The notes beneath the pieces were generated by a model. The model saw nothing but the letters and a program-made list of their open reading frames with translations. It had not been told where the DNA came from and did no database searches. Positions 29,601 through 64,000 of a stretch of 64,000 nt of DNA are shown in pieces. The stretch spans positions 43,158,171 to 43,222,170 of the forward strand of contig CM041776.1 in NCBI GenBank assembly GCA_023374045.1. The letters run 5' to 3'. The position numbers and the translations under genes were made by a program. Source of the stretch: Limonium bicolor (Eukaryota; Streptophyta; Magnoliopsida; Caryophyllales; Plumbaginaceae). Within the stretch, counting starts at the first letter, position 1; each line of letters opens with the position of its first letter.

Positions 29601-30712
29601 TAAAGCATGAAACCGGTGTATTGTGTTACTTGTGTGTTTTGCCTTGAACTAACACACTTGACATTGAGATTGTTTACTAACTATGAGTAGTAAACCGTGG
29701 TATGAGGTAAGAATTTACTCCCAAATTGTTGGTTGGTTAATACCCGAAAAAGGTTTAACTAACACCTTCATCTTTGAGACTTGTACTAACTGGAACTTGG
29801 GGGGTCAGGAACCTGGGACTGACTCCGGTCATGCATGTTAAGAAAAAGGGGGTCGGCATCTGAATCAGATCCGTCTCCCGTTTGAGACTCGTTCTTGACT
29901 TGTCGCCTAGAGTCGACATATAGACTCGACCACCTTGGATTACAGTTCAAGGTGGGAGGCCAGATTAAGATGGTGCGGTGGGATATCCTAAATCCCAAAT
30001 TTAAGATAAGTTGTTTTGTTTAACCAATGGTTAATAGCTCATTGGATAGGGTTACCTTTGACCCAACAAGATAAACATTGAGATAAGAAACAACCAATTC
30101 TAACTAAAAAAAAGGTTGGCACACTGAGATGAGATTGGTTATGAGAATAAGAGAAATCTTGACTTAAGGAGTTGAAAGCAAACTCACTTACTTAAGGAAC
30201 GCCTTTAAGTCGTTCATTGTGTTTGAACTATGAATTGTTCATGTGTTGTGTGGTTTTTATTGTACTTATTATTTATGTTGTATTAATAATCAACCGCATG
30301 ATATCAACAAGTAATCATCGTAGCCCCGTTAGCTTGGGGGCTATAAGTTAATCGTACCAGTGAAGGTGGTGAGCCCCTTGGGGCAACTATATTAATTTTG
30401 CAGGTAAGCGCCTGCAGAAGACTCACCTTGAGAGTAGGAGCGGGTAGACTTAGGTTGGGTTTACTTTTGTATCCGGGTCGTGCCTGTACGCCCGTTGTTG
30501 ATATTAGATGATGTTGTAATTGTGTTGGAGTTGGAGATACTTGAAACTCAGTTGGTATTTTTGGATCAATGGTTGTAAATATTTAAGTTCGGTGTATTTT
30601 ATAGTCAGACCGTGGCAAGCTGTTGGGTAATGTAAAGAATTCCGCTGCGATTTTAATATATGTGTTAGACGGTTTATGCGATAATCACGACTATTAGAGG
30701 CGGGGTGTTACA
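26653..30712 (+). repeat. 5' LTR of element A, 4060 bp
   Basis: Very long for a plant LTR. Promoter-like ATAAATAT at about 27165-27172 with a CT-rich tract at 27296-27360 suggests a short U3 (about 0.5-0.65 kb) and a very long transcribed R/U5. AAGGTAA donor-like motifs are at about 27591, 27759 and 27951, the palindrome array at 29056-29225, a GAGCCCCTTGGGGC hairpin at 30371-30384 and CAGGTA at 30401-30406. It is nearly identical to the 3' LTR, differing by scattered substitutions and small indels. Confidence 0.92.
29056..29225. repeat. Palindrome array of element A 5' LTR (three units)
   Basis: Units at 29056, 29129 and 29182, each beginning GCTCCGACCTACCCAGGGGG (third GCTCTGACC) and ending GGGTCGGTCGTGGGTCGGTC. 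CCGACC and GGTCGG form the arms. The third spacer is shorter than in other arrays. Confidence 0.85.
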
Positions 30713-30717
30713 AAAAG

Positions 30718-30729
30718 TGGTATCAGAGC
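30718..30729 (+). promoter_or_regulatory. Primer-binding site of element A (initiator tRNA-Met type) with hairpin
   Basis: TGGTATCAGAGC, complementary to the 3' end of plant initiator tRNA-Met, starts five bases after the LTR. TCAGAGCGTA at 30723-30732 is followed after two bases by its exact reverse complement TACGCTCTGA (30735-30744), so the 3' half of the PBS could be paired in the genomic RNA. Confidence 0.92.
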
Positions 30730-30946
30730 GTAGTTACGCTCTGAATACAGAATACCGAACTTAGGTAGCCACCGAGTCATAATATGAGTTAAGACATAAG
30801 TTATGGGTTAAGGATTGAGATGTTAGTGTGAGAGGAGTCAGATGACCACTAATAAGAGTGGATCGTCTTTACCGTCTACGGATGTTATACACTCATGAAC
30901 CAAGACCGTTGTAATCACAAGCCTAATGTGCATTGTACTTGTTCAG

Positions 30947-32331
30947 ATGTCAGGAAGGATAGGCCGAGGCCGTGGTCGAGGAGAAGAGGTCTGAGATACC
31001 GGGCGGGCAGGCGATCGCTGAAATCATGGCTGCCTCTTTGGGACACATGGGCTATCATCCCGGCGCACCGCCACCACCACAGCCCCGGGAACCGAACTGG
31101 GTGAAGAGTCTTGCTGACCTTCGACCCCCACCGTTTAAAGGAGAGACTGACCCTGCCAAGCTCGAGGCATACATCTCCAAGATGGAGAATGTGTTCGAGA
31201 CCCTTGACGCTCCTGCTGGAGCCAAGGTTCGACTTGCTGCTTTCTACCTGAAGGGGGCGGCAGGTGATTGGTGGAAGCTGGTAAGGGCCAAGCGTATGGC
31301 CAACCCCGACTTCGGTTGGGAACAGTACACGGCGCTACTGCGAGCCAAGTACTATCCCACTCATGTCCAGACTAAGAAGCGGCTGCAGTTGGACGCGCTG
31401 AAGCAGACTGAAAAGATGATGGTGGATGAGTATTACTCGTAGTTCACCGCTCTGTTGTATCTTCTGCCGGGACTGGGGTACTCGGACTAGGTCTTGGTAG
31501 ACCGCTTCTATGGCGGGCTGAGCCACCGACTCCGGTATGGCATGGGGCCGATGAGCTACACTACCTTGTATGTAATGAGAGAGATTAAGATACTTATAAG
31601 TGTTTGGAGTTTTATACCATGAGAATGTGAGACTAATACCTTAAAGGCAGGAGTGCTATCATGTCACTGCTAAGGTAGAGATTACCGTCCAGCTAAGGGA
31701 CGAGGACAATGCTGCTAAGAGGAAGATTGCTGGAAAGGGGTCCGACAACCAAGGGCAAGGCGGGTACAAGAAACAAAAGTACCAGCCTCAGTCCCATAAG
31801 GGCCAGAAGGGAAAGGGAGAAAGTGAGAAGGCTACTGAAGAGCCTCTGAAGCTAACCTATGTTATTGCTGCTAAACCCCTGCGCTCAAAAGCGCCCAAGG
31901 GTAAGGAAACACACCTTAATGTGAGATGAACATTATTTAGCAATTGAGATCCAATTAATAATGTTGAGAATGATCAGGTTCTGAGTCTGGGAAGGAAGCT
32001 GGTGGGAGTTACTAGCGTCGCTACATATGTTCGTGGTGTGGCAAGGATCACCCCGGAACCGACTGCGAGGGTAACAAGGTGCAGTGCCACCATTGTGATG
32101 GTTGGGGGCACAGAGCCTATGAATGCTTCGAGAACCCCGAGAGCAAAGCCTATAGACCCGATTGGAAGGGCAAGGGCAAGGGCAAGGGTAAGGCCGACCA
32201 GAGCACTGGATCTGACGGTCCGAAGGCGACTCAGTCTGCTGCCAACAAAGGACCCCGGGTGGTCCAGAATTCTGGGCCTACTCTACATATGGTGGACCGG
32301 GAGGATGAGGCTGAACCCTCAACGAGACCGG
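30947..32331 (+). pseudogene. Element A Gag, intron-containing, broken
   Basis: The ATG at 30947 follows TTGTTCAG, a good 3' splice site. It opens MSGRIGRGRGRG, shifts frame near 30985, then continues with the capsid (NWVKSLADLRPPPFKGETDP, KLEAYISKMENVFETLDAPA, WWKLVRAKR, KRLQLDALKQTEKMMVDEYY) with two stops (31440 and near 31488). Intron-like gaps match element D: 31572-31650 (donor weakened to TAT|GTAATG), 31901-31977, and the donor at 32331|32332. Exon 3 has an in-frame TAG, then knuckles CSWCGKDHPGTDC and CHHCDGWGHRAYEC and a Gly/Lys repeat. Confidence 0.85.
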
Positions 32332-32466
32332 GTACCGCTATAACCCATTAACTAATAAAATTGCCTGCTTACCGCATTTCATGCATGTTTGAATAAATGG
32401 TTGAGTTAGATAAGAATTTAGTACATGATTAGAACTTAAGTAAGATATAACCTACTACCACCTTAG

Positions 32467-33206
32467 GAAACTTCAACATTTGCTATCCAATACCTTCAAC
32501 ACCTAACCCGGAAGTGACCGACATCGAAACCCGAGAGATCACACAAGATCAGTGTCAGGTTATCCGCCCAGGTATGATTTCATTAAGGGGATACCTGACA
32601 CCCGAAGCACAAATAGCCGTCATCAGGAGATGCAATCAGCTAGGAGTGGGACAAGGAGGTTTTTATACCCCGGAGTACCCTGGAGGAGCAAAGATGAAAC
32701 TAAGGATGATGAGCTTAGGCAAGGATTGGAATCCATATGCCAAGACATACCATAACACGAGAGCACAAGATGGAGCATCACCACCGGAAATACCCGAAGA
32801 ATTTCATCTGGTTCTTACACAAGCCGTGGAGATCGTTCAGCAACTGGAAGCTTAGCCGATCCCAGACATACAAGCAGATCTATGCATCGTCAACTTCTAC
32901 GAAAAAGAAGGACGACTTGGATTACACCAAGATAAGGACGAGACAGCGGAGTCTCTCGAAAGAGGGATACCCATAGTGTCTTAGTCCATTGGAGATGACG
33001 CCGAATTCCTATATGGCGAACAGAAGTGTGTGGACCGGGCTAAGAAGTTGATACTTAAATATGGAGATGTGTTAGTCATGGGTGGAGAGTCAAGAATGCT
33101 ATACCATGGTATTAAGAAGATCAAGCTGAACACAGCACCGTCAGCGGTAATCAATGTAACGCACATGAGACCAGGGTGACTAAACCTAACCTTTAGGCAG
33201 TACTAG
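32467..33206 (+). pseudogene. AlkB-like (ALKBH1-type) Fe(II)/2-oxoglutarate dioxygenase carried by element A
   Basis: Member of the AlkB family, which oxidatively demethylates nucleic acids. One frame runs from the acceptor CACCTTAG|GA to the stop at 33204-33206. Diagnostic segments: CQVIRPGMISLRGYLTPEAQ, GQGGFYTPEYPGGAKMKL, SLGKDWNPYAKTY, then LCIVNFYEKEGRLGLHQDKD with the metal-binding HxD at 32935-32943, GDVLVMGGESRMLYHG with the distal His at 33105-33107, and LNLTFRQY. Three in-frame stops (32853-32855, 32982-32984, 33177-33179) break it; the last replaces the first of the two Arg residues that bind 2-oxoglutarate. It lies between Gag and protease, with no cellular gene around it. Confidence 0.9.
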
Positions 33207-33281
33207 CCATGTAATACTTTAAGTATGATATAAGAGAGGAAGTGTAAGAAAGAAGCACATGATGTAAAAAGGATGGTTATT

Positions 33282-33287
33282 AATAAA
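33282..33287 (+). terminator. Poly(A) signal candidate after AlkB in element A
   Basis: AATAAA about 76 bases after the AlkB stop, followed by ACAGTGTTGTTC, a GT-rich tract. Element D has AATAAA at the same relative place followed by GCAGTGTTG. This would allow a transcript ending before pol. Confidence 0.5.
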
Positions 33288-33365
33288 ATAACAGTGTTGT
33301 TCATATTAATTGTTACGACTCGTGTTATACCATCAATACTCATGAAAGCTTGTGAAATACATTAG

Positions 33366-34090
33366 GTCATGGACTCGGTACGGAAGGTGCACTAAGCATT
33401 CTTACAGAGGCATAGGCCGGCGAAAGCAGTACTATCCTCACCAGCACCTTTCCGATCAATGGCATTGATGCATCAGTGCTATTCAACTCAGGGGCCTCGC
33501 ATACCTTCATCTCATCATCATTTGTGAGGAGGTTAGGGCTAGACACTGATGAGCTACCGGACTTCATGGTTACGCTCCCGTCTAAGGATAAGGTTCGATG
33601 CACACACTACTACCGAGCAGCCACCATCAGAATCAAGGGTGAAGACTTTCCAGTCACCTTCATTGAGTTCAGAGATTTGCGATTTGATGTGATTTTCGGG
33701 ATGAACTGGTTGGAGCGGCACAAGGGTCGTATCCTCTGCGCCGAGCACCGACTGCTACTCAGGAGTCCGTCTGGGGTTACAATGTCATACCGCCAGAGGC
33801 CCAAAGAGCCTTCGACCAAGATCATCTCCGCTATAGCGATGTTTAGAGAACTGAGGAGGAAGGAGGAAGTATATCTCTGCTATGTCCAGGGCATAGAGAG
33901 GGACCCCGAGTTCGATCCCAACTTACCAGTAGTGTCAGAGTTCCCCGATCTCTTTCCTCAGGAACTGCCCGGCATGCCACCCACTCGGGAGGTAGAGTTC
34001 ACCATTGAGTTGCTACCTGGAACGGGACCGATAGCTAAGGCAACTTACCGCATGGCTCCGGCTGAAATGAATGAGTTAAAAAACAGATGA
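33366..34090 (+). pseudogene. Element A protease and start of RT
   Basis: Begins at the acceptor ACATTAG|GT and reads GLGTEGALSILTEA, a stop near 33411, then the retropepsin motif VLFNSGASHTF, where the catalytic Asp is Asn (GAC/GAT to AAC). FGMNWLERHKGRILCAEH and PSGVTMSYRQRP follow, typical of chromovirus protease-RT connectors, then FPDLFPQELPGMPPTREVEF at the RT N terminus. A one-base loss in an A-run near 34080 shifts the frame. Confidence 0.88.
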
Positions 34091-35325
34091 GAGACCTGCT
34101 TGACAAAGGGTTTGTGCGACCTAGCGTATCACCATGGGGAGCGCCAGTACTCTTCGTGAAGAAGAAGGATGGCAGCCTCCGCCTCTACATCGACTACAGA
34201 GAGTTGAATGCAGTGACAGTAAAGAACAAGTACCCGCTACCACGCATAGATGATTTGTTCGATTAGTTGAAGGGGGCATCCGTGTTCTCCAGGATTGATC
34301 TCAGATCAGGGTACCATCAGATAGTCATTAAGGAGGGAGATATTGAGAAGATGGAATTTCGGACACGATACAGCCACTACAAATTTACAGTGATGCCGTT
34401 CGGTTTGTCGAATGCACCGGCGAAATTTATGGATCAGATGAACCGCTTGTTCAGGGAGCAGTTGGACAAGTCGGTTGTGGTCTTCATCGACGATATACTG
34501 ATATATTCAAAGTCGAGAGCTGAGCATGAGAACCACTTGAGGAAAGTTTTGGAGATTTTGACGGAGAACCAACTTTATGCTAAGTTCTCCAAATGCGAGT
34601 TTTGGCTTGACCATATGTCTTTCCTTGGTCATTTCATCTCGGATGCTGGGATCTCTGTGGATCCAGCAAAGATCGATGCCGTACGTACCTGGCCGAGACC
34701 TAAGATAGTTACCGACATCAAGAGCTTTCTTGGGTTGGCGGGTTACTACCACAGATTCGTGAAGAACTTCTCTAAGGTCGCAAAGCCGATGACCAGTCTG
34801 ATGAAGAAAGATGCACCGTTTGTATGGACGGTTGACTGTGAGAGTTCATTACAGAGCTTGAAGGACTCACTGACTTCTGCACCTGTTCTGACCATTCCAG
34901 ACGGTACGGAGGGCTTTGAAGTTTATTGTGATGCATCCGGCAGGGGATTGGGTTGTGTACTCATGCAGCACGGCAAGGTGGTTGCTTATGCCTCTCGCCA
35001 GCTAAAGAAACGTGAGAAGAACTACCCCACACATGACTTAGAGTTTGGAGCTGTAGTATTCGCCTTGAAGATATGGCGCCACTACTTGTACAGGGTTAGT
35101 GTGACGATCTACACCGATCATAAGAGCTTGAAATACATATTCACTCAGAAGGAGTTGAATCTACGACAAAGAAGATGGTTAGAATTTCTGAAAGACTACG
35201 ATATTGACCTCCAGTACAAAGAAGGGAAGGCCAATGTTGTAGCTGACGCCCTGAGCCGTCGAGCACACTCACTCCATTCGCTACTTGCTTCTTCTAGCTT
35301 GGTTGATGAGGTGCGAGAGGCTTAG
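34091..35325 (+). pseudogene. Element A reverse transcriptase and RNase H
   Basis: RT motifs: [24 protein letters not shown], the CAG-to-TAG stop at 34264-34266, [25 protein letters not shown], and the catalytic [13 protein letters not shown]. RNase [57 protein letters not shown]. The RNase H domain ends at a TAG (35323-35325) where element D has CAG. Confidence 0.9.
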
Positions 35326-36743
35326 AGGAGCGATGAGTATATGAGAGAGGTTAGACAGAAGATGATAGAGGGTACCTTTGAGAGTCAGAAATACGACTTC
35401 AGACTTCATGATGATGATCTAATCAGACTTAAGGGCCGGTTATGCATACCACGAAGCAGCGCTGATCTGAAAGAGCGCATACTACAAGAATCACATTGTT
35501 CTTCAGTTTCCATCCATCCGAGAGCCTCTAAGATGTACAAAGACATGAGAAGGTACTTCTGGTGGTCGGGGATGAAAGCAGATGTTACCGAGTTCGTACT
35601 GAGGTGTCTCACATGCCAGAAGGTGAAATTCGAGCACCGACGACTGGGCAGAATGGTACAGTCGATGCCAGTTTCGGAGTGGAAGTTTCATGACATCTCC
35701 ATGGATTTCATGGTCTGACTCCCACCTACTAGGGGAGGTCTGAACATGATATGGGTTGTAGTTGATCGCCTGACCAAGGTAGCCTGATTCATTCCGATGA
35801 AGGATACTTGAAAGGTAACTAAGCTCGTAGAGCTATTTGATAAGGAGATCATGAGACACCACGGGGTACCAAAGACCATTGTATCCGATAGAGACACCAG
35901 ATTCCTTTCGAGGTATTGGAGAGCTACAAGGGAAGCGCTGGGTACCGAATTGAAGTTTGGTACCGCGTTCCATCCTCAGACAGATGGTCATACTGAGCGT
36001 ACAATTCAGACACTCGAGGACATGCTGAGAGCATGTGCCTTGGACTTCCAGGGCAGTTGGATTGACAAGTTACATCTGATCGAGTTCTCGTATAACAATA
36101 GCTACCATGCTTCGATCAAGATGGCACCTTTCCAAGCGTTGTACGGTAGACCATGTCGTACACCGCTCTGCTGGGATGAGTCGAGTGAGGCGGTCATTAT
36201 AGGACCAGAGTACTTAGAGCAAGTTCAAGTTGAGGTTCAGCAAATCAGAGAGAACATGAAAGCTACTCAAGATAGGCAGAAGTTGTATGCTGTTGTTCGA
36301 CGATGAGACCTAGAGTTCGTAGTGGGCGACCAGGTATTTCTGCGAGTCTCACCGATGAAGGGTGTGTTCAAGTTTGGGTAGAAGGGCAAACTGAGCTAGA
36401 AATTTGTGGGTCCTTATGAGATTATGGAGCGGGTGGGTCCATTTGCTTACAGGTTGAACTTACCTGCTGAGTTGGGTAAAGTGCATGTCGTCTTTCATGT
36501 TTCATAGTTAAAGAAGTACATGCACCACCCCTCTCATGTTTTAGATCCGGAGAGATTATCCTTAGAGCCAAATATGAGATCAGTGGAGACCCCTCAGAGG
36601 ATCTTGGATACTAAGACTAGGGACACTCTCCATAAGTCAGTGTGACTGGTGAAGGTCTTCTGGTCTAACCAGGATGTCGAAGAGGCCACTTGGGAGTTAG
36701 AGGATAAGATGAGAGCGAAGTACCCTTCGTTGTTTACCAACTA
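35326..36743 (+). pseudogene. Element A integrase with chromodomain-like C terminus
   Basis: HHCC zinc domain (H..H in ESHCSSVSIHP, CLTCQKVK), catalytic core with DD and E regions (WKFHDISMDF, TIVSDRDTRFLSRYW, FHPQTDGHTERTIQTL), GPY-type region ([20 protein letters not shown]), and the tail VKVFWSNQDVEEATWELEDK, the chromodomain-like end of Tekay/Del chromoviruses. One frame holds throughout with eight or more stops, mostly TAG for CAG and TGA for CGA or TGG. Confidence 0.9.
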
Positions 36744-37038
36744 GATTGTCTGTATAGGGTATGAGGCGTACCCCTTTTTAAGAGGGGTAGAGCTTCCTTG
36801 TTTTGAGTTAGTAAACGAGCAATCACGTTGTGTTGTTTGTCGTTTGCTTGGTTTGTGTAAGATACTTTGTGTATTGCACTTGGTATTAGATATGAGATAT
36901 GTATAGTACTTATGTATTGTACTTCGTGATATACCACATGAGTCTTAAGTTGTGTGAAGTGAATATAAGTTAAGGTATTGAGTTATTCGTGTGTTGTGAA
37001 TGTTATAGCATACATGTGAACTTTGGGGACAAAGTTCT
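36744..37038 (+). other. 3' untranslated spacer of element A
   Basis: No coding sequence. It leads from the integrase stop to the polypurine tract; TTGTTTGTCGTTTGCTTGG and GTATTGT-rich sequence only. Confidence 0.5.
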
Positions 37039-37054
37039 TTTAAGGGGGGTAGAT
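37039..37054 (+). promoter_or_regulatory. Polypurine tract of element A
   Basis: TTTTAAGGGGGGTAGAT directly precedes the 3' LTR, the expected plus-strand primer site. Confidence 0.85.
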
Positions 37055-40000
37055 TGAAATACCCCAAACCTAGATATGGTGATTATATGTTAAAATAAGA
37101 AATAATAAGGCTAAAACATGCCTTAGAAACATTAGTAAACAATTTAAACCATGGAAAACATAAGAAAACATCATAACGTCAATTTAAGCAAAAACATGCT
37201 CTAGGCTTGGTGTAAGTATGATTAGGACCCAAAGGTCATTCTTAGACCTTATTAACATGCTAATGGACATGTTAAATCAGTTACCAAAGAAAACCAAGCT
37301 CAAAACAAGTAAAAACACAAATTGTGTTTTAAGGAGCCTTAAAGCACATTTTTGGAAAAATTGTCTTAGAAATTGGTTTTGAGTGGCTAAATGCCCAGGA
37401 TTATACCTTAATAAACATGTGTACTACTTAGTATCACATTAGGAAGCCTAAATAAATGGGAAACCAACAATTTCACAAATTTGTGCACTAATTATGAATA
37501 GTGACTACATAGTGCTTATTTAAGACTTTAGTCAACTTTGGTTAATTAGTTGTTCAAGATAGCCCATAAATATCTCAATTAAGAGAGGGGACTGGTTTTT
37601 GAAGGTGATGAGTCACCATAACATTCCATCCAAGTTAGAAAAGAAGAGGGAAAATAAAGTAGAGTACTATTTGCTTTTTAAGGAAATATCTCACCTTTAG
37701 CTCACCTCTCTTCTCTTCATTCGTTCTTATTCCACCGTTTTTCTTCTTCTTCATCCTCTCCAAAACCATAAGAACCAGCTCCATCCTTTCTCCACCTTGC
37801 CTTGCTCACCAAATCCATAATATTGCTCCAAATCAAAAACTAAGCTTAGATTATTGTTAGTTGGAGCAAGGCCTTCATTTCTATCTTTTAAAATCTCCAA
37901 AAGCTCAAGTTTGATGCCATGGAGAAACTCCATTGAAGAATTAAAATTCAGTTTTAAGAGCTCCATTTCATCTCCTTTCATTCAAGGTAAGAAAAGTGAA
38001 AGAAAAATCAAGTTTCCTTCACTTTTGTGCATTAACAAAAATTGTCTTCTCATGGAGTCTTGTTTTTACTCCTTGAACTAGCTTGTTTTAATCTCCAAGG
38101 ACTATTGGAGGTCCTCTTTGATTCATTACCCAAGTCTATCTTGAGACTTTCAAGGTAATCATCCATTTTAATGCTTAAAGCATTCTTTTGACCTAAGAAT
38201 GATTTCCATGAGTCTGGGCATGTTCCTTAGTACTCATTAGATTATTTGAATTTTTATTAGAAGCTTAGCAAGGAAACAAAAGTGCTTGCCAAAAATCAGT
38301 CAAGAAAACCAAAGGAGAATGTGAGAGAAGCTTGAGAAAAACAAGGTAAATGACTTACCTTAAGGTGGTTTAATGTTTTAAGGGATGGGGTTTAGATAGA
38401 TACTAAATGTAGCTTAGAGCTTACATTATATAATGAACTATAAAACCTAGGAAAAACAACATGATCATATTTGTAAACTTGCGACTAAATAGCCAATGGG
38501 AATTGTCTTAGTAAAACAACTATGAGGTGGATTACAAGTACATGTATAACTACTATGAGATTATTGGGTGTAATTGCAGGTTGAAGGCTATTAAATGTAG
38601 GATATTCAATATTTAAATTTATGTCATTTAAGGGCCTAAGAGCCATGTCATTTAAGGGCCTAAGTGCCAAGCAATTTAAGTTTATGCACTATATTATGAT
38701 GTGGTGTAGTTTGAGTGTAGTTTGGGTGTAACAAATGCCTACTGAGAATCTGAGTGTTCTTGGTTGTTTAAGGTTGAAAAACGTAAGTGTTTGGGTATAA
38801 GAATATACTAGGGAAGCTATGTCAAAATATGGTGGAGAAGCTAGATGTTTTAAGGATTTTAAGGAAAATTTATGACCAAGGATGTACTAGTAAACATTAA
38901 GGGTTAGATTGGTGAAAATGGATAAACTAAGGAGTTCTTGAGTATTAGGATGACCTAGGAATGTCTAGGAGGATTTAGAGGTTACAATGGTGAATTTAAA
39001 GTACCAAAACCATAATAAGAGAAGTTATAAGACTTGTGCAAAGTTTTTAGGAAAATAAGGTATAATGTCTTTTGAAGACTTAAGCATGAACTAGGGTAAG
39101 TGAGTAACCTTGAGGAAGTTGAGAAGTTTGAGTAAAGGAAATGGGGATGAAGAATGATGCTTGTGGAGTGGTCAAAATGATTGAGAGGAAACAATTGGGA
39201 TAGTTAAGGTGTTAGGCAAAGTCTACATGTTGGAAGTGTAAAGAATTAAGTTCTAAATGTTAAGAATCTTGTAAGAAGTTGAGCAAATGATTAAGGAAAT
39301 TAGAAGTGAGTTAATCAATGAGTTGGTAGATGATTTAAGAGGGTTTTAAAGTGCCAAAATGATGTTAAAACATGCTAAAATATTTGTGGAAAGGGTAGGT
39401 AAAGATTCGAAAGGATTTGAGTGGATTAAGCACATTGGAAAGAGTTTCTGGCTCCGACCTACCTAGGGGTTGGGTCGGTCGTGGGTCGGTCGAGTGTAAG
39501 ATTTCCTGTCGGAGAGTTTCTGGCTCCGACCTACCCAGGGGGTTTGGGTCGGTCTTGGGTCGGTCGAGTGTTTCTGGCTCCGACCTACCCAGGGGGTTAA
39601 GTCGGTCGTGGGTCGGTCGGGCTATAAAAAAAAAGAAAGGAAAGAGTGGCATTAGTAGTCCGCCATTAGGAGGGTAATGATGATTAGAAAGATAAACCTA
39701 CGAGGACTTAAGAAATAAGATGAAGTAAAGTGATTTAAGTGTTTAAGGTTAAAACTATAAGGACTTAGTGGTTATTAGTTGGGGATCATTAGTAGCTACG
39801 TCAGCTAGGTTGATTGGAAGTAATTAACAATCCAAATTGGATGAATGTTTTAGGACTTGAGAATTGGGACTCAGAAGGAGATTAGGCAACCGAAACGACC
39901 GACGGTGTACGGTATGGTTTTCTTGTAGCCTGCTTGCTAACGAGGTGTCCCTCGGCTTGTGTGCTAATTGTTTAATTGTTTCGACTAAAACAAGATAAAG

Positions 40001-46866: not shown

Positions 46867-47164
46867 CAGGGCCGTCTCAACAATTTTCGGGGCCCTGTTC
46901 TAAAATATTAAATGAGGCCCCTTAATCAATTAAATTATGTAAATATAGAAAAATTATTAAATTAAATTACGTATTCACAATGGTCATGTTTATAATGTTT
47001 GAATGTATTTAAAACATAAAGTTTTGATATACCCCATTCAAAATAAATTTAACAATATATAATTTTCTTATGACAAAATCTCAAGGACATATATAAAAAT
47101 TGGGCCCCCAAAATATGGGGCCCTGTTCGGTTGCCCAGCTTGCACAGCTTCAAAGCCGGCACTG
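46867..47164. mobile_element. hAT-type MITE, 298 bp
   Basis: Ends are CAGGGCCGTCTC on the left and GAAAGCC-type AAGCCGGCACTG on the right (reverse complement CAGTGCCGGCTT), matching the CAG-G-CCGGC termini of plant hAT elements. Subterminal GGGGCCCTGTTC repeats are inverted at both ends. The 8-bp TSD GCCCGATG (46859-46866 and 47165-47172) is perfect. The AT-rich inside encodes nothing. Confidence 0.9.
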
Positions 47165-53274: not shown

Positions 53275-54756
53275 TGTAACACCCCAACTACTACCATTCA
53301 CTTAACAACAAATTGTAGCGGAAAACTTAACTCATCACATTACTTAACTCAATGGTGTTACACGCCGTTAACCACCCACGTGGCTAACAAGGCTAATACA
53401 TATACATTGTATCGGTCTGATGGACTAGATTCCCGAGCAACTACACACGACTATCCCATTCCGTTAACAACAACCAATATACATATACATTCCAACTGTA
53501 CCGAGTATTTACAAACTAATGCCGATAACAATTTCGGTCTTACTACACCAACAATACACTCTCGATTTGAATGGCTACCCATGTACAACAACTACCCGTG
53601 CTACTCTCGAACGGCTTCCAGCTCCTTGTACCCGAAATAGAAAAGGAAGAAAAGGGTGGCCCCCAAGGGGCTCAGCACCTTTGCTGGTATGGTAATCCCG
53701 CAGCCCGCATGCTACCGGGCCACGCACAACTATTTGTCGTCTTAGCATGCGGTTGATTACATTTAAATCATGCATGTACACCACAAACACGCAACACATT
53801 ACAATCCACAACAATGGTCTCAACAAATACAGACAACACATCTACACATAATAAATCACTCTTTGTTTTCTTTGACCCTAGAGTGTTTCTCCTCTAATGG
53901 AGATGTTTCCTCAATAGACGGCACTTACCCACTAGTCGGGTTATCCATAAATGTCTCTCTTATAAACTGGGATCCATAGCCATAATCCACATATTTCACA
54001 TAACAATTCATTCCACATTTTCACGTATATATAACGCCGTATCGCAATAAGAATTGCAGCGCAACAATAACACATAACATAACGGTAACGGTTCTCTTTA
54101 CGAACCAACCTCAACATAGTTAGTTAACTTGGAAGCCTAGAGAATGTATATACCCTCATGATAAGCTTTTTACATCACTCATTACCGTCCTGTTAGTCGG
54201 ACGAGTAAGTTAACATAAAGATGGATTGGATATAGGGATCCGAACACACCGTACATAATCCCCAACAAACGTGAGTCAAAAGCCTTGGTTAAGCTCAGGG
54301 GTGATTGAAGACCAACGAAGGAATACAACCAACAGAGAGGAAGCTGAAGAAACTGTATACATCAACTCCCAAACAACGCGTGACCGGAACAATCGGATTC
54401 CTCACCCCCCATAATATATACATAAACATAGTTAAGGGCTCCACTGTGGAACCTATCACATCTTTACACCTTGCAGTATTACAACTGGGTTAGACACACA
54501 AAAGTAGTGAACATATTAGCATGCACAAACATCACATAACTAATTCACGCATAGCCGTGGTTAGAACGTTCCCATGGTTGAATACCGATCTGTTATGTAA
54601 TTCTAAAGTCGGTTAGTTAAGTTTAGCACATATTTAAAGCTAAACGGTATCGGAACTACGCACACCACATAAATAAACAACTTTAAACTCATTACATGTT
54701 TTTATCTTAAAAGGTGGCAAACATTCAGAAAAACACATTGGCATACAAGCCGGTGT
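53275..54756 (-). mobile_element. 3' part of an inverted giant LTR, interrupted by element D
   Basis: Starts TGTAACACCCC (minus-strand LTR end) after GAATA (53270-53274, candidate TSD). Same family as 1366-1796. Contains the dyad 53367-53388 (GTTAACCAC..GTGGCTAAC) and the GCCCCCAAGGGGCTCAGC hairpin near 53659-53676. At 54757 element D begins, so the rest of the LTR should lie to the right of element D outside the window. Confidence 0.8.
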
Positions 54757-57700
54757 TGAAATACCCCGTAATTAAAAATAGTGATTAATTAGGCTAATAA
54801 ATATTTTAGAAGCTTAATTAAGTCTAAATAATTATAAGGGAATAAATCCCGAAGAAAACGAATCCTTAAAATGGATTAAAAATACAAACGAATCCTAAAA
54901 CGCGCTTTTCGAGGAAACCGAGAAAACGCGATTTCAACCGGGTTAAATAGACCCGTAATAATTATAAGTAATTGAATAATCATTAATAAGTATAAATGAA
55001 GGTCTAGAACTAATAAAATTAATTAAACGATAAAATTCCGGAAAACGGGTACCGAATAGTAAAAACTGTCAAAACGGGAACTTGTGGGGTAGAAAAATAA
55101 ATAACACAAACTTATGTGTCCAATGTTGCAAATAAATTTCAAAACCCACGAGTGGGTCTGTGGGCTAGCCGATTTCAAGGCCTCTCACACTCTCACTCTT
55201 ATTAACTAAAAACAAAAGAAATAAAGTAAACTTACATTACTTTATTACTCTCATTCTCTCTCTCCGATTCACTCATTTCTCCACGTACAGCACCCCCTCA
55301 CTTTCTGATTTTCTTCCTTCTCTGGTTGCTTCCCACCGAAGCCATGGAGAACTAGAAAACCTTCACAAAACACCCTCTTCTCTCCTTTGTAACTCCCTCA
55401 ATACTTGTCCAAAAATCATAAAAATTACACCATTGTAATCTCCTCATAAAGAGCAACAATTCCCTCTTTTCAAAATCCAGAAAAGAGCATTTTCATTTCG
55501 GTGGGTATACCCCATTTGGAGCTTCAAGACTACCACAAGGAGGCCCTCCTTCTCCTTGTTCTTGTAAGGTAAAAATTCTCAAAAACTTCATCTTTTTCTA
55601 GCCTCAAAGGCAAAACAAAATCTGAGATGAAACCCTTGTTTACTCTCCCTTTTGTTCCAGCCGATTTGACTCATTGGTGGAGTGGGAACTTTGCACTTGA
55701 ACCACTCCAAGCCTTGTTTGCACTCTTGAGAGGTAAAGGAATTCTAAACCCAAATCTTATATTTAACCGTACGTAAGGTTAGGTTTTTTTGGTAGATATT
55801 GTGAGTGGTGATATAGATTTGTGAGGTAGCCGGTGGAAAGAAAGGTAGGCAGAAGAGAAGAAGGAAAGGAAAGAAACCAAACAGAAGCAAAACAAGGTAA
55901 AACTTACCTCTGTTCGGTGTGTGCTAATGCGTGCGTATATGTATATTGTTAAACCAAAGGAAGGAAACTACTGTAACCATATAAAACAGATAAGCAAAAT
56001 GGTAGTGTTAACATTAGTTGAAATCTGTCAAACAAAAACATGTAAACTGCTGTTGTGTAAATTTTGAACTGATGCACATACATATATATGTAAACTGTCG
56101 GATGTATATATATATATGATACAGGATGAAACCGATGTGGATTTGTGAAAGAATTAGTGTGAGGATAATGTAAGATTATAGGGGAAGCTATGGCAAAATT
56201 TACCTAGAAACTATATCACTTAGGAGCTGTTAGCATTTGTAGTGGATGAATGAAAATGAAGCAGAACAGCAGCAGCAGTTCGGTAGAGTTGCAACAGAGG
56301 GAAAAAAATAAGTGAAAGTGATGATGGTGATAGCAGTAGGTTGAGATTGATTTTTGGTGATGATTTAGGTGAGTTAGATACTTGGGTAAGTAGTTAAACA
56401 CAAATATTATTAGAAACCATAGGGAAGTGATTAAAGGAAGAAGAGAATGAAACAGAGCGTGGGAAAAATTCTGTCGTAACAGACCAATTGTTGGTCCGGG
56501 ACCTAGGTCCTACATTAAGGCCCGGACCAACCATGCACAAACAACCGTGAGTTACAATTTCCGTCGGGTCCGGGACTTAGCCTAGGTGCAAGGACCCGGA
56601 CCACCTTACAAAAATAAACCGAGATTTGGAATACCCTATGGGTCCGGGACTTAACCCAAGAGCAAGGGCCCGGACCAATTACAAAATCAATTCGAATCAG
56701 CTACAAACGGTCCGGGACTTATCCCTGATGCAAGGACCCGGACCACTACAAGAAAATAAGCCGAGAGTTTTAACTATATAGGTCCGGGACTTAGGACCTA
56801 GACAATGTCCCGGACCAACACCCAGTTTCACCCGAGAGAAATTTTTAACGGGCAGTAGCGTAAGGTCTTGTTTGGGTATGGACATATAAGTTACTTAAGA
56901 CTTAAGTAATCATAAATAAGAGTCATTAGGAGTATAAACAAGCTGGGATAAGAATGAGAAGTAAATAAATAATGAAAATGAAATTGTACAAGTAAGAATT
57001 AATAAGTATGTAAAACAGATGCAATTGTATAACCCCGAATTAATAAGTATGAACTGGGAAAATTTAAGAAACGAAGTAAGGTTGGTAAATCATAGCTGAT
57101 TGGTTGTGTAATGTTATGTATGTCATAGGACTTGATTTGTGACACCGGAGGACGTTCGGAAACACGTACAACGGTGAACGGTATGAATTCCTCATGCCCC
57201 GAATGCTATCATGGCTACTCTGATTTGTGTGTTGTGTGCTAATTGATCACCAATAAAGATAAATGCACGAATCGGAGTTAATATGCTTACTTGTGAATAT
57301 GTAGTGTTGTATGATGTGTATCTTCTTAAATCTTAGTTTGTATAATTCATGAAATGTATGGATGATATGAATGTGTGCATGTATGTTGCATCGTACTGTG
57401 ACCGAATATGTTTATGAATGGACTTCTAACTTATTCCTAACAAGCTAACTCCTAACCTAAATTGGTAATTAAATTGGAATGAGTAGAAGTCCGATATAGT
57501 TTCGGCCACGCGTGAGGATGCGGAGTCACGAGAGGTTGGCTCCAATTCCTGACTCTTAAACTGGTCCGCGGCCCAAATCCCTTAAGTGGGTAGCATCCCG
57601 GATTAGTGAGTCAAGTAAATCCCGGATGTGGGACGGAGTAGTCCCCAAGGCCGGAGGTCCCGACGACTTAACTTGAGTATAAGTAAGAAAGTAAGAATGA

Positions 57701-58512
57701 GTAAGTAAGGAATAGTAAGTGTAAGTGTAAGTAAGTATGGTGAATGAGTAAAAGAGTAATATGCATTCCGATTAACCCGGATGCACAATCTGGCTAACCT
57801 TGTGAAGGTAAGTGTTGTGAACCCTATTGTATTGTTGCCTTGAAGTGAATGATGTATTGTAATGTATGTATGATTGTATGTAAAGCATGTATGTATGAGT
57901 AATGAACAAGCATGTTTAGCGGTCGCCAATTAGTCGGCGTACCCTTGCTAGCAATCGGTATATGCGGAGTTCATGCGCAGCGTAAGCTGACCCCCTAGGG
58001 GGCTGTTTTTACCACAATGCAGGTACTCGTGAAGGATGAAGACTAGGAGAGTTGAAGTTTAATTTCTCCTGTCTTTCTTTTTTTTGGATTGTAAACATTG
58101 AATTATGATTGGTGTACTAAGTAGTACACGGCTAGGAGCCTTTTTGATTAGCCGGTGTACCATGGGGTACACCCTTTTGGATATTGATAGAATGGGAATT
58201 GGTATAGATGAGTAGCTCTTAGAAACTCATTCTTTTGGGAAACTTGAAAGGTTGTAAAGAACATACTTAAACACTCGGTAATCCTTTAATGTAAGTGCAA
58301 GGTATTTTGTAATCGGTAAGTAATGTTTTAGTAGCTCGGTATACTTAGGCATCAGACCGTCACTGTATTGTAGAGTAAGCCTTGCTAGCTGTATGGGCGG
58401 TTAGCGGCATTGTTTCACCCGCCGTAGTAAGTAGTATTATTTCCGCTGCAGACTCGTAGGACTACCAGGACGATTAGACGGTAAGTATAGCATTAACGGT
58501 TGGGGTGTTACA
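54757..58512 (+). repeat. 5' LTR of element D, 3756 bp
   Basis: TGAAATACCCC start, GGGGTGTTACA end. Palindrome CGCGCTTTTC..GAAAACGCG at 54901-54930, CT-rich leader at 55245-55330, AAGGTAA/GAGGTAAA motifs near 55568, 55733 and 55893, five-unit array at 56493-56816, GACCCCCTAGGGGGC hairpin near 57988-58002 and CAGGTA at 58020-58025. Confidence 0.9.
56493..56816. repeat. Five-unit palindrome array of element D
   Basis: Units at about 56493, 56567, 56641, 56709 and 56781 (period 68-74), each GGTCCGGGAC...CCCGGACC. Middles differ between units while the arms are conserved. Confidence 0.9.
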
Positions 58513-58517: not shown

Positions 58518-58529
58518 TGGTATCAGAGC
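58518..58529 (+). promoter_or_regulatory. Primer-binding site of element D with hairpin
   Basis: TGGTATCAGAGC five bases after the LTR, overlapped by the perfect 10-bp inverted repeat TCAGAGCGTA/TACGCTCTGA (58523-58544), identical to element A. Confidence 0.92.
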
Positions 58530-58736: not shown

Positions 58737-60222
58737 ATGTCAGGAAGAGGCCGAGGCCGACCTAGAGGCGAAGCCTCAGATGGAACCGGTGCGCAGACGA
58801 TAGCTGAGATCGTCGCCGCCACAGTAGCACAGATGCTACCACAAGTAATCCAAGCTGTACAACAAACTCAGCAGAACCAGCAAACTCAAGCGGGGCCAAT
58901 CCCTCCCCCTCCACCCAGAGAAGTGAACTGGGTAAAAGCTATTGCAGATCTCCGTCCTCCCTGCTTTAGAGGCGAGAGCGATCCTGCTAAGTTGGAGGCC
59001 TACATCTCCGAGATGGAGACGGCGTTTGAGACCCTCGAGCTCCTGCTGGAGTTCGAGTGAGAGTAGCTGCCTATTATCTGAAGGATGCTGCTATGGATTG
59101 GTGGAAACTAGTCAAACACGAGTATGTCGACGACCCCACCTTCGATTGGGAGGCCTTTGCTGCTATCCTCCGTTCCAAATACTACCCAGAGCACGTCAAA
59201 ACAAAGAAGAGACTTGAACTTGACGCTCTGAGGATGACAGAGAAGATGTCTGTCGATGAGTACTACCGCACCTTCACTTCTATCCTCCGTCTTCTACCCG
59301 ACCTTGGGTACACCGGCCAGGTGTTGGTCGATCGCTTCTATGGCGGTCTGAGCCATCGCCTTAGGTACGGTATGGGCTATACACGGTTTACCTCCCTTCA
59401 GGTAAACATCAGTTTGACCCTTAGTATCATTTCAATTCCTTAAATTCCTTGAATCCTTGAATCTTTTCTTATCTCTTTTCAAATAAGAATCCCGGCTAAT
59501 ACCTGAAATTTCAGGAGTGTTATCACGCGGCTTCTCGCGTTGAGATCACTTGCCAGTTAAGGGATGAAGAGACCGCGCTGAAGCGCAAGGCTAATAGCAA
59601 GAACACCAGTTCGGAGGAACAGAACCAGGGTAAGAACTGGAAGAAGAAGAAGGGCAATTTCTTTCAGCAATCCCAGAAGAAATTCCCCAGTGAGAGCAGT
59701 GCCCATACTGAGAAGGGCAGCCCGGTTGAGCTTCTTCAGCTAGGCTCATCTGCACCGGTGGCTGCGAAGCCACTGAGATCACACCCACCTAAGGGTAAAC
59801 TTCTATCTCTAATCGTATTCACATAAGTATCATATTAGTATATCCACGCACACTTGTGCTAACCCTCTAAACCTTAGGTTCTGGCTCCGGATTCACCAAA
59901 ACCTTCTCCGATGGCCGCACATACGTGTGCAGGAAGTGCAACCAGGACCATCCTGGTAAGGACTGCTTTGGGAGAGACATCAAGTGCTACAACTGCCAGA
60001 AGCTGGGACATACAGCTAATAGATGCCCAGAGAGTGGGAAGCCAAAGGGGAACTTCCAGAATTTCAAGCAGAGGGAAGGCAAGGAGGTTGCATCTGGCGA
60101 TGCACCGGCCCAGCAGGCACCACAGGGACCGGGATCCCGGGGACCTCAGAGGGGTGCACCTCAGAGGCAGCCTGTCCTTCATGTCATAGACCGTGATGGG
60201 TCCGGTTCTAAGTCCGGCCCAG
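58737..60222 (+). pseudogene. Element D Gag, three exons with introns
   Basis: ATG 58737 follows GATTATTCAG, a 3' splice site consensus. Exon 1 (to 59401): basic MSGRGRGRPRGE start, NWVKAIADLRPPCFRGESDP, one-base loss near 59039, then WWKLVKHEYVDDPTFDWE, KRLELDALRMTEKMSVDEYY and RFYGGLSHRLRYGMG. Intron 1 59402-59514 (CAG|GTAAAC..TTTCAG), phase 0. Exon 2 59515-59794 is Lys-rich. Intron 2 59795-59877 (G|GTAAAC..CTTAG), phase 1. Exon 3 59878-60222 has zinc knuckles CRKCNQDHPGKDC and CYNCQKLGHTANRC and a Gly/Pro/Gln-rich tail. The donor G|GTAATT at 60222|60223 leads to AlkB or to the protease. The basic N terminus and knuckles suggest RNA binding. Confidence 0.87.
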
Positions 60223-60376
60223 GTAATTATCTGAACCTTTAATCCTTGAAGTAGTATGAATAAGTAGTAGAGTAACTACCTGAATGAATGCATGATTGAA
60301 TGAAATGAAGTATGTAATGAGCATGAAATTAAGTAGTTGAAACTAGTACTCACCGTAAATGAATTTGTAACCATAG

Positions 60377-61115
60377 GAAGCTTTAGTATCTGTTATCCAA
60401 TACCATCGAAACCGAATCAAGAAGAGACCGACATCACCAACCACTACTACACCAGCGAACAGTGTCAGGTCATCCGACCAGGTATGATCTTATTAAAGGA
60501 ATACCTGACACCTGAAGCACAGATTTCAATCATACGACGATGCAATGAGCTAGGAGCGGGTCAAGGAGGATTTTATACACCCGAATTTCCCGGTGGAGCG
60601 AAGATGAAGCTGAAGATGATGTGCTTGGGAAAGGATTGGAATCCTTATACCAAGACATACCAAGAGACACGAACACATGACGAAGCGACGCCACCGACAA
60701 TACCTCCAGAGTTTCAGACACTTGTCACACAAGCAGTAGAAATTGCACGACAATGTGAGTATGATCCATCCCCGCACTTGAAGCGGACCTTTGTATTGTC
60801 AACTTTTATGAGAAAGAAGGAAGACTTGGGTTACACCAAGATAAGGACGAGACAGCGGAATCTCTTGAACAAGGAGTGCCCGTAGTGTCTTGGTCCATTG
60901 GTGATGACGCTGTATTTTTGTATAGCGAGCAGAAGCGTGTGGACCTCGCACAGAAATTGGTATTGAGATCAGGAGATGTCCTCATCATGGGTGGAAACTC
61001 TAGGATGCTGTATCACGGTATCAACAAGATCAAGCTGAATACGGCGCCACCGGCAATAGTCAATGCCACACACATGAAACCAGGACGCCTGAACCTTACC
61101 TTTAGGAAGTATTAA
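60377..61115 (+). pseudogene. AlkB-like (ALKBH1-type) Fe(II)/2-oxoglutarate dioxygenase carried by element D
   Basis: Begins at acceptor CCATAG|GA, in phase with the Gag donor. Order: CQVIRPGMILLKEYLTPEAQ, GAGQGGFYTPEFPGGAKMKL, MMCLGKDWNPYTKTYQETR, a one-base loss near 60781, then LGLHQDKDE with HxD at 60834-60842, VPVVSWSIGDDAVFLYSEQK, SGDVLIMGGNSRMLYHG with the distal His at 61014-61016, and RPGRLNLTFRKY with the two 2-oxoglutarate-binding Arg codons at 61086-61088 and 61104-61106, then TAA. All catalytic residues are present; the only lesion I see is the single-base frameshift. About 245 codons, enough for the catalytic core plus a short N-terminal extension. The closest cellular relatives I can name are plant ALKBH1-type proteins. 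Confidence 0.92.
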
Positions 61116-61184
61116 ATTCATAATATCATGTAATGTATTAGTAACGTGTATTAGAGACATGGCATGTATGATGGTTGGTTTATC

Positions 61185-61190
61185 AATAAA
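61185..61190 (+). terminator. Poly(A) signal candidate after AlkB in element D
   Basis: AATAAA 70 bases after the AlkB stop, followed by GAGCAGTGTTGATTT. Same arrangement as 33282-33287 in element A. Confidence 0.5.
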
Positions 61191-61256
61191 GAGCAGTGTT
61201 GATTTAAATTCCACTTGTGTCCACCATCATTACTTAACCACTTGTGAATCCAATAG

Positions 61257-61798
61257 GTTGTGAGCTCGGTACCGAAGGTATTCTGAGCATTCTCACCGAA
61301 GCACAAGCCGGCAAAAGCGGCACCATCTTGACGGGAACCTTCCCAGTGAATGGCATTGAAGCCAATGTGTTATTCGACTCCGGCGCCTCTCACACCTTCG
61401 TATCACCATCTTTTGTGAAGAGGTTGAAGCTAGATGCGGATGAGTTACCCAATTTCCTAGTTACTCTCCCATCGAAGGAGCGAGTACAGTGCACCAAGTA
61501 TTACAAATCAGCCACAATTCAAATCAGAAATGAAGTGTTTCCCATCTCCTTCATCGAGTTCAATGGGTTGGGATTCGACTTGATCATCGGAATGAATTGG
61601 TTGGAGCGGCACAAGGGTAGAATCCTCTGCGCCGAGCACGTGCTGCTCAAGAGTCCTTCTGGGGTTACAGTATCTTACCGCCAGAGACCGAGAGCCTTCG
61701 ACCACCTTATATCCGCCATGGCTATGTACCGGGAACTCAGGAAGGGTAAGAAGTATTATTTATGTACAAGACCTGGAGCGAGATCCAGAGTTCAGTGA
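61257..61798 (+). pseudogene. Element D protease and connector
   Basis: Starts at acceptor CCAATAG|GT, giving ELGTEGILSILTEAQAGK in phase with the Gag donor at 60222. Retropepsin motif VLFDSGASHTF with catalytic Asp kept, then IIGMNWLERHKGRILCAEH and SGVTVSYRQRP. Frame is lost near 61770. Confidence 0.88.
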
Positions 61799-63110
61799 TG
61801 AAGTACCCATTGTATCTGAGTACCTGATGTGTTCCTAAGGAGTTACCCGGCATGCCACCACCGAGAGTTGAATTTGAGATCGATTTATTGCCAGGTACCG
61901 GTCCCATTGCTAGGGCACCGTACCGCATGGCACCTAAATGACAGAACTAAAGAGCAGTTGCGAGATCTTGACAAAGGGTTTATACGCCCGAGCGTATCAC
62001 CCTGGGGAGCACCGGTCCTCTTCGTGAAGAAGAAGGACGGTAGCCTCCGCCTTTGTATTGACTACCGCGAGCTGAATGCGGTCCACGTAAAAAAATACCC
62101 ATTGCCACGCATCGACGACCTATTTGATCAGTTGAAAGGAGCCTCGTCTTCTCCAAGATCGACCTTCGTTCTGGGTATCATCAGATTGCTATCAAGAGCA
62201 GATATAGAGAAAACGGCATTCCGTACCAGATATGGCCACTATGAATTCACAGTGCCATTCGGTTTGTCAAATGCACCAGCAAATTCATGGACCTCATGAA
62301 TCGTATTCAGTGAGCAGTTGGACACTTCGTTGTGGTATTCATTGACACATCCTTGTGTATCAGTCACAGAGGCATGAAATTCATTTGAGGAAAGTACTAG
62401 ACATGCGCGAGAACCAGCTGTATGCGAAGTTCTCCAAGTGCGAGTTCTGGCTAGATCAGGTATCATTCCTTGGTCATGTCATCTCGAGCGCGGTATCAGT
62501 TGACCCTTCTAAGATTGAAGCTGTACGATCATGGCCTAGGCCCAAGACTGTTACCGACATTAGGAGCTTTCTTGGCCTAGCCGGTTACTACCGGAGATTT
62601 GTAAAGGACTTCTCAAAAGTCGCTAAGCCCATGACTACACTGATGAAGAAAGATGCACCGTTTGTGTGGACAGACGACTGCGAGTTATCATTCAGAAGCT
62701 AAAGGACTCATTGACCTCAGCGCCCATCCTTACTCTTCCAGAGGGCACAGAGGGATTTGAGGTATATGTGATGCATCAGGCAAGGAATGGGATGCGTGCT
62801 CATGCAGCATGGCAAGGTTGTAGCTTATGCCTCCCGCCAGCTGAAAAGCATGAGGAGAATTACCCGACTCACGACTTAGAGTTAGGAGCCATTGTCTTCG
62901 CCTTGAAGATATGGCGACACTATCTCTATGGGGTAAGCATCACCATCTACTCCGATCATAAGAGCTTACAGTATGTATTCACTCAGAAAGAACTCAATTG
63001 AGACAGAGAAGATGGATGGAATTTCTTCAGACTATGACATCAACTTGCAGTATAAGGAAGGGAAGGCAATGTTGTAGCCGACGCCCTGAGTCGTCGAGCA
63101 CACTCGCTCC
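61799..63110 (+). pseudogene. Element D reverse transcriptase and RNase H, many one-base losses
   Basis: RT pieces: [50 protein letters not shown], a damaged FIDD site near 62338-62350, [38 protein letters not shown]. RNase H: GTEGFEVY (damaged after), [44 protein letters not shown]. Compared with element A most breaks are single missing bases in short runs, with few stop-generating substitutions. Confidence 0.88.
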
Positions 63111-64000
63111 ATTCGCTACTCGCTTCTTCTAGCTTGGTTGACGAGGTGCGAGACGCTCAGTTGAGCGACCCTTACATACCGAAATCAGACAAAGATCAGA
63201 TGGCACATTTGAAAAGAAGTAAATGATTTTCAGCTACATGAAGATGGTTGATTCGGTGAATGGCAGGTATGCGTTCCCCGAAGCAATGCAGCTAAGGATC
63301 GCATCCTGCGAGAGTCACATAGTTCTACATTATCAGTCCACCAGGAGCCTCCAAGATGTACAAAGACATGAAGAGGTACTTCTGGTGGTCTGGGATGAAG
63401 TCAGATGTGACAGAATTTGTAAGATGCTTGACATGCCAGAAAGTAAAATTTGAACATCGTAGACCGGGCGGAATGGTACAATCGATGCCAGTTCCGGAGT
63501 GGAAATTTCATGATATCTCCATGGATTTTGTTGTAGGACTCCCACCTGCCAGGGGAGGACTCAACATGATCTGGGTTGTAGTCGATCGCCTTACCAAGGT
63601 TGCCAGATTCATACCGATGAAGGACACCTGGAAGGTTGTGAAGCTAGCTGAGCTATTCGATAGGAGATTATCAGGCACACGGAGTCCCTAAGACTATAGT
63701 ATCTGATCGCGACACCAGATTTCTTTCGAGATACTGGAGAGCTACAAGGGAAGCTTGGGTACAGAATTGAAGCTGAGTACCGCCTTCCATCCTCAGACCG
63801 ACGGTCAGACAGAAGGACCATCCAGACACTGAGGACATGCTTCGGGCATGTGCCTTGGACTTTCAGGGGAGTTGGTTAGACAAGCTTCATCTTATCGAGT
63901 TTTCTTATAATAATAGCTATCATGCTTCGATTAAGATGTCGCCTTTCCAAGCTCTATACGGTAGACCTTGCCGTACACCTTTTGTTGGGATGAGTCGAGC
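63111..64000 (+). pseudogene. Element D integrase, partial
   Basis: Zinc region SCESHIVLHYQSTRSLQDV in shifted frame, RCLTCQKVKFEHRRPGGMVQ, catalytic core WKFHDISMDFVVGLPPARGG, VVVDRLTKVARFIPMKD, then SDRDTRF and FHPQTDG in other frames, ending at the window edge within the core. Confidence 0.85.

Follow-up and report, generated by a model that had tools for sequence, protein, structure and literature searches.

A Ty3/gypsy retrotransposon family of Limonium bicolor carries an ALKBH1-type AlkB domain on a predicted alternative exon joined to Gag

An abundant Ty3/gypsy family in the genome of Limonium bicolor carries an ALKBH1-type AlkB domain on an exon predicted to be alternatively spliced to Gag, and on balance we think it probable that this enzyme demethylates the nucleic acid of the element itself. 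The family came to light in a stretch of 64,000 nucleotides, here called the window, for which a preliminary description had reported an AlkB domain inside one Ty3/gypsy element (element D). That observation was confirmed by our analysis, and its interpretation as an AlkB dioxygenase built into the element, which might strip methyl marks from the element's RNA or cDNA, is supported.

Element D measures ~13.9 kb in total and lies on the plus strand. Self-comparison placed its 5' LTR, which has TG...CA ends, at 54757..58512, while the 3' LTR (locus L016) occupies 64953-68672 in numbering continued past the window end, thus ending 4,672 bases beyond the window. A target-site duplication, GGTGT, was read directly at both borders, at 54752..54756 on the left and, in the continued numbering, at 68673-68677 behind the 3' LTR. 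The two LTRs differ by 19 mismatches and 96 gap openings when compared by BLAST, and by 123 mismatches/3692 when aligned by MAFFT. Five bases 3' of the 5' LTR the sequence reads TGGTATCAGAGC (58518..58529), a primer binding site which we take to be of the initiator-Met tRNA type; a purine tract precedes the 3' LTR.

The coding part starts with gag exon 1 (58737..59401), recognised from its ORFs and encoding the N terminus and the capsid (Pfam Retrotrans_gag, E 8.8e-17), followed by predicted intron 1 (59402..59514), exon 2 (59515..59794), predicted intron 2 (59795..59877) and exon 3 (59878..60222), which encodes the zinc knuckle(s) (Pfam zf-CCHC, E 3e-6). The protease (61257..61741; Pfam RVP_2, E 9e-27) and the region from reverse transcriptase to integrase (61820..63998) come behind AlkB, and pol runs on beyond the window end. 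This copy is not intact, since gag exon 1 is frameshifted and pol heavily so. Between 61500 and 64000 it shows 5-21 gaps per 500 bases against related copies, compared with 0-2 in the five relatives examined, an excess attributable either to unusual decay or to bases lost in assembly. The single frameshift in its AlkB exon may be of the same kind, as open copies occur elsewhere.

The AlkB exon of element D (60377..61115) ends in its own stop codon. A profile search of its translation, which the preliminary description had proposed, matched AlkB profiles: 60765-61115 corresponds to Pfam 2OG-FeII_Oxy_2 (E 2.9e-32, 112.9 bits, cut-off 31.2) and 60379-60885 to the first half of the same profile (E 4.4e-8). 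In four open copies the PF13532 match extended over positions 1-194 or 2-194 with E values of 4.1e-45 to 2.7e-47, and when two relatives were included the whole-domain range was 7.8e-45 to 2.7e-47. The best match of the C-terminal half in the PDB was rice OsALKBH1 (5xeg/5xoi, E 1.5e-39), followed by E. coli AlkB (3.2e-17), with which the window sequence has the HQDKDE motif in common. The three motifs quoted at the outset (HQDKDE, YHG and RLNLTFR) are all present, and the domain does lie between a CCHC knuckle (within 59871-60242) and an RVP_2 aspartic protease (within 61238-61798), as claimed. The catalytic residues were also rightly said to be kept, although here they are split over two frames and the element around them is broken as described above.

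Among 35 genomic copies compared, the H and D of the HxD motif, the distal His and the second Arg were found in 35/35 and the first Arg in 31/35. The HxD part belonged to the search motif, so that its conservation is preselected; outside that motif, the N and Y of NFY and the distal His are likewise present in 35/35. The predicted model (pLDDT 93.4) of P0002, a relative 70% identical to one of the copies (L007), was compared by Foldseek, giving a TM score of 0.93 and 52% identity with OsALKBH1, 0.80-0.83 with E. coli AlkB, the second-best fold, and 0.54-0.59 with ALKBH5. An ALKBH5-type relationship as in orchids is ruled out by the latter values. Named relatives of the element domain are ALKBH1C/D proteins, the nearest of them from flowering plants and many annotated as DNA N6-methyladenine demethylases. 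The enzyme class is thus well supported, and by sequence and fold the domain is assigned to the ALKBH1 type in a broad sense rather than to ALKBH5/9/10; the relationship to ALKBH1 anticipated in the preliminary description holds. It resembles plant ALKBH1C/ALKBH1D in sequence, catalytic residues and fold (the fold taken from P0002), but the listed host proteins are mostly longer (about 270-440 aa) and none contains Gag.

The segment under which the domain had first been described, 60223-61256, has a splice-donor GT as its first two bases and an acceptor AG as its last two, a fact that went unmentioned there. The donor GT (60223-60224) is present in 35/35 copies. A first acceptor, A1, whose AG lies at 60375-60376 directly before the AlkB exon, is kept in 34/35 (L018 has lost it although its AlkB frame is open) and closes a predicted intron at 60223..60376. 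The second acceptor, A2 (AG at 61255..61256), precedes the protease/pol exon, which starts at 61257, and is also found in 34/35, the exception being L019, a truncated copy. By comparison, other GT and AG dinucleotides in the donor-A1 intron are common to 2-26/35 copies, while downstream of the AlkB stop some GTs recur in up to 33/35. The stop itself stands at one column in 34/35 copies (TAA 18, TAG 12, TGA 4). Exon 3 ends in phase 1 (..PG|) and both acceptors continue that phase, so the joined frames read either Gag-AlkB-stop or Gag-Pol.

Given one donor, two phase-matched acceptors, a stop at the end of the exon and, usually, an AATAAA behind it, we predict that AlkB serves as an alternative terminal exon, the use of which yields Gag-AlkB in place of Gag-Pol. 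The original placement of the domain between gag and protease is therefore right as to position but incomplete as to arrangement. A single long gag-pol ORF that includes AlkB in frame was also considered and rejected, because gag meets a stop at 60240-60242, within the predicted intron, and a further, conserved stop lies behind AlkB.

The upstream gag introns were called from splice sites and gap lengths in other copies. For intron 1, the donor GT (59402) and the AG were each found in 20/21 loci; for intron 2, the GT was found in 21/21 and the AG in 16/21 at the aligned column, those of L019, L022, L024, L028 and L029 not aligning there. In 15 pairs of 6 representatives, gap lengths were multiples of 3 in 44/44 cases in exon 2 and 42/42 in exon 3, against 21/52 in intron 1 and 11/56 in intron 2. 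In a separate comparison the zinc-knuckle tail gave 29/29. The exon-1 tail (0/5) speaks against the exon call, as do the AlkB exon (6/20) and the protease exon (7/33), the last two from 7 representatives, some of them broken or truncated. The AlkB exon is nevertheless poor in gaps, which take up 0.6% of its columns and 20% of those in the intron. A filter for open gag exons plus AlkB was passed by four loci (L017, L018, L019 and L032), and the predicted exons of two were joined: L019, a natural copy, gave an open Gag-ZnK-AlkB frame of 680 aa, its intron-2 acceptor being picked by eye because it is absent from the conserved column, and the L032 frame was interrupted in exon 3 (403 aa). No gene model combining Gag and AlkB was found, by listed Pfam domains, among the best 120 of 360 matches.

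A predicted poly(A) signal, AATAAA, lies at 61185..61190 in element D and is found behind the AlkB stop in 31/35 copies, against 5.5 expected from Markov shuffles. It is absent from four first-lineage copies, L020 included, and from all six copies of the second lineage described below (0/6), which have AATGAA at one fixed position (6/6). These absences make polyadenylation a weaker part of the proposal than splicing, and we regard an AlkB transcript ending behind the AlkB stop as a prediction of medium strength.

The size of the family was estimated with a degenerate version of the motif G-L-H-Q-D-K-D-E. A search that tolerated up to 2 mismatches gave 2 exact matches in the window (32919 and 60828) where 0.01 were expected; the 2.92-Gb Limonium bicolor genome held 16,627 (8,402 + 8,225), and the reversed pattern 0. 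If each match stood for a full LTR-plus-internal unit of 10.2 kb, the family would make up ~170 Mb of the genome, a rough figure because many copies are broken. Runs of the motif at C1:1430340-1461717, 4328130-4348957 and 7387134-7418970 are spaced at 10.4-10.6 kb, roughly the length of one LTR with its internal region, and are likely tandem arrays of AlkB elements sharing LTRs.

The 35 copies comprise 26 unselected for intactness, all from C1 and all with the exact motif (2 from the window, 19 from L017-L035 and 5 from L036-L040), and 9 best-scoring ones (L002-L010); L001 and L011-L015 were dropped as repeats. Where ~10 kb of sequence was at hand, gag lay upstream of AlkB in 21/21 loci and protease downstream in 20/21, L019 being truncated behind AlkB. 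The expectation that other genomic copies would show AlkB between Gag and protease was thus borne out, and these counts, with the motif matches in genome and window set against those of the reversed pattern and of chance, rule out a chance or isolated insertion. One copy tested for further domains (L020) matched Pfam RVT_1, RNase H, Integrase_H2C2, Chromo (3.9e-6) and SH3_Tf2-1 (4.5e-23). The order gag-PR-RT-RH-INT, with a chromodomain behind integrase as seen in L020 alone, places the family among the chromoviruses.

A second element of the same kind is present in the window on the plus strand (26653..40000 and beyond), with a 5' LTR from 26653 and a 3' LTR from 37055. Its AlkB region (32332..33365) repeats the arrangement of element D, with a donor GT at 32332, the A1 AG at 32465-32466, the AlkB exon from 32467, AATAAA at 33282 and the A2 AG at 33364-33365, and its AlkB frame is broken. 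Elsewhere in the window, ORFs at 4607-6442 resemble the reverse transcriptase of a non-LTR retrotransposon together with its C-terminal part, and those at 22424-26426 and 45140-46899 (minus strand) look Ty1/copia-like, in both cases judged by eye. No clear host gene was noticed among the window ORFs of >=160 aa, and an Rfam search of the window gave 0 matches.

AlkB is conserved under purifying selection. Its median pN/pS was 0.259, calculated on distant pairs (75 pairs, 17 saturated, from 14 open sequences, i.e. 10 of the 26 unselected copies and 4 best-scoring ones), with a mean pS of 0.64 across the AlkB subfamilies. The protease gave 0.247 (19 sequences, 148 pairs, 69 saturated), the capsid 0.206 (8 sequences, 25 pairs, 15 saturated), the reverse transcriptase 0.049 (14 sequences, 86 pairs, 37 saturated) and the integrase 0.05 (5 sequences, 6 pairs, 0 saturated). 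In the 26 unselected copies, diversity at the three codon positions of AlkB was 0.18/0.125/0.406, and 0.418 in the adjoining intron. Taken together, constraint on AlkB is similar to that on the element's capsid and protease and weaker than that on reverse transcriptase.

These values bear on whether the domain does anything at all, as a host ALKBH1 cDNA once inserted in the gag-pol intron of a master element could have been copied since without function. A full-length open AlkB frame passed our filter in 10/26 unselected copies, and the 16/26 that have none would fit such a history; we find it very improbable, given a pN/pS near that of protease and capsid across diverged subfamilies, the excess of diversity at third positions, the conserved stop and splice sites, and the retention of the domain in two lineages. 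A neutral passenger was rejected on the median pN/pS and codon-position diversity of AlkB.

The second of these lineages (L041-L046) was found with a plant ALKBH1 query. Its AlkB is 57-60% identical to that of the first in the four pairs compared, and its parts stand in the same order: the donor and A1 were found in 6/6, A2, as CAG, in 6/6, and AlkB ends in a stop. Gag, protease and reverse transcriptase could be read around AlkB in the three loci examined (L041, L043 and L045). As these six loci are best-scoring matches, their intactness is uninformative on the average copy. The second lineage has HQDRDE in place of HQDKDE (HRDRDE in L043), to which the GLHQDKDE pattern is blind, and carries a gag-tail stretch between AlkB and protease.

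A phylogeny against host ALKBH1 genes was also proposed in the preliminary description. All TE-type AlkB sequences given to the trees, together with P0001, P0002, P0003 and P0005, fell on one side of a branch, apart from the sampled plant ALKBH1 genes, with a support of 100/99 in one tree (bootstrap not fully settled) and 99/100 in another; the trees are unrooted and the branch is long. No nesting of the element domains among plant ALKBH1C/D genes was seen. The host's own ALKBH1 gene was not recognised among 121 scored matches, the six loci fetched all being TE copies. These trees would be read most simply as a single ancient capture event involving an ALKBH1-type coding sequence. P0001-P0003 and P0005 are metagenome/Logan proteins, three of them on contigs of 10-27 kb; they suggest that TE-type AlkB domains exist outside the Limonium bicolor genome, and their contigs could show such elements in other plants. 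Viral contigs scanned with a profile of the TE AlkB yielded 8 pattern stretches and 0 relatives.

How the element might use the enzyme can be outlined from this layout. The primary transcript would contain three gag exons and one donor at 60222|60223. Splicing from this donor to A2 (61257) would give Gag-Pol, while splicing to A1 (60377) would give Gag-AlkB, ending at the AlkB stop and likely polyadenylated just behind it. Unspliced RNA would serve as the packaged genome, since the copies examined keep their introns. Gag-AlkB would then enter the particle through its capsid and zinc-knuckle parts and there remove methyl groups by oxidation, from either the packaged RNA or the newly made cDNA, to the presumed benefit of the element. 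Candidate substrates are m6A set by the host and m1A/m3C damage, which blocks reverse transcription; 6mA would also be possible.

Gag and its RNA are normally cytoplasmic, and the predicted products join AlkB to Gag, not to integrase. For these reasons we think it rather unlikely that the enzyme, though spliced to Gag, acts on host nucleic acid, for example on 6mA/m6A in host RNA or in chromatin at an integration site chosen with the chromodomain, even if such a target would agree with the chromodomain of L020, with the demethylase annotation of many nearest named relatives and with the best structural match, OsALKBH1, which has been proposed as a rice 6mA demethylase (PMC7758401, in its available text). 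Nor do we expect the domain to be purely a repair enzyme for m1A/m3C alkylation damage in packaged RNA, with epigenetic marks uninvolved. The HQDKDE common to E. coli AlkB and conserved here (as part of the search motif), the rank of E. coli AlkB as second-best fold and the RNA repair role of plant RNA virus AlkB domains cited in the accessible part of PMC9289625 would all suit repair; the annotation of the closest family, N6-methyladenine demethylase, together with the fact that sequence does not reveal substrate, leaves this explanation a minor candidate. Demethylation of the element's own nucleic acid, as outlined above, is the reading we prefer.

Parts of this picture are already known, namely AlkB in Ty3/gypsy (Phalaenopsis) and splice choice at gag-pol (BARE1, copia, Ogre). 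According to the text available to us of Alvarado-Marchena et al. (2022; PMC9289625), the Phalaenopsis element Gypsy_Pa_2799, with a paALKBH5-like ORF2, is a Ty3/gypsy LTR retrotransposon with many copies that, like element D, acquired an AlkB domain (PF13532); the encoded protein binds RNA and has m6A demethylase activity in vitro, and in a screen of 121 angiosperm genomes the domain was found in Phalaenopsis only. As described there, the orchid element is a member of the Tat/Ogre branch that measures 25.5 kb and has a dual RNase H and a tRNA-Arg primer site, whereas the family of element D has a chromodomain, ~13.9 kb and another primer site. In the former, a single ORF lacking the Ogre intron encodes Gag-Pol and a separate ORF2 (565 aa) encodes AlkB, whereas element D has predicted gag introns and AlkB on a predicted exon. 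Moreover, the orchid domain falls in the ALKBH5/9B/10B clade, in contrast to the ALKBH1 type found here. The ALKBH1-type domain, the intron-exon layout and the chromodomain place element D outside the orchid Gypsy-AlkB family, and its family is a different and likely independent case, that of a Gag-linked ALKBH1-type domain in a chromodomain element.

Precedents for the predicted splicing come from other retrotransposons, again as far as the available texts go. In BARE1 and Drosophila copia, splicing at the gag-pol border yields a subgenomic RNA for the Gag product, and the unspliced RNA of BARE1 is the packaged form, its spliced RNA not being replicated (PMC3735527); both are precedents for splice choice, which in element D is predicted from splice-site conservation, and BARE1 also for packaging of unspliced RNA. 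Splicing in these elements ends the frame just behind Gag, whereas the alternative acceptor of element D is predicted to fuse an enzyme domain to Gag. Ogre elements are likewise under splice control at gag-pol (PMC6317226); in pea and Medicago one intron is removed between Gag-Pro and RT, unlike the one donor and two acceptors of element D, the nearer of which leads to the enzyme exon. Plant RNA viruses of the Alphaflexi-, Betaflexi- and Closteroviridae resemble element D in being selfish RNA genomes that encode an AlkB domain (PMC9289625), but they are RNA viruses, not retroelements, and are set beside it by description only. Our literature search of open-licence papers found no AlkB-bearing retrotransposon other than the Phalaenopsis case of PMC9289625, and no retrotransposon with an alternative exon encoding a Gag-fused enzyme; a term search of the accessible text of PMC6338049 and PMC11963269, on accessory domains and Retand elements, returned no mention of AlkB.

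Why a retrotransposon might profit from encoding such an enzyme is illustrated by ONSEN, whose RNA is held in stress granules by m6A and freed by ALKBH9B according to the available part of a 2025 review (PMC12786077), which cites PMC9289625. In a wider and more tentative proposal, which we hold as a serious possibility short of a probable one, the alternative last exon, bringing a stop and a poly(A) site of its own, would let the element choose between Gag-Pol and a Gag-demethylase, so that each particle carries a demethylase, and Ty3/gypsy elements would have recruited AlkB at least twice, from different AlkB branches, as a counter-defence against host methylation. A single case in orchids could be an oddity. 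With a second one, likely independent, in which another AlkB branch sits in another gypsy lineage and the motif occurs more than ten thousand times, conflict over methyl marks on the RNA or cDNA of retroelements is likely to be real.
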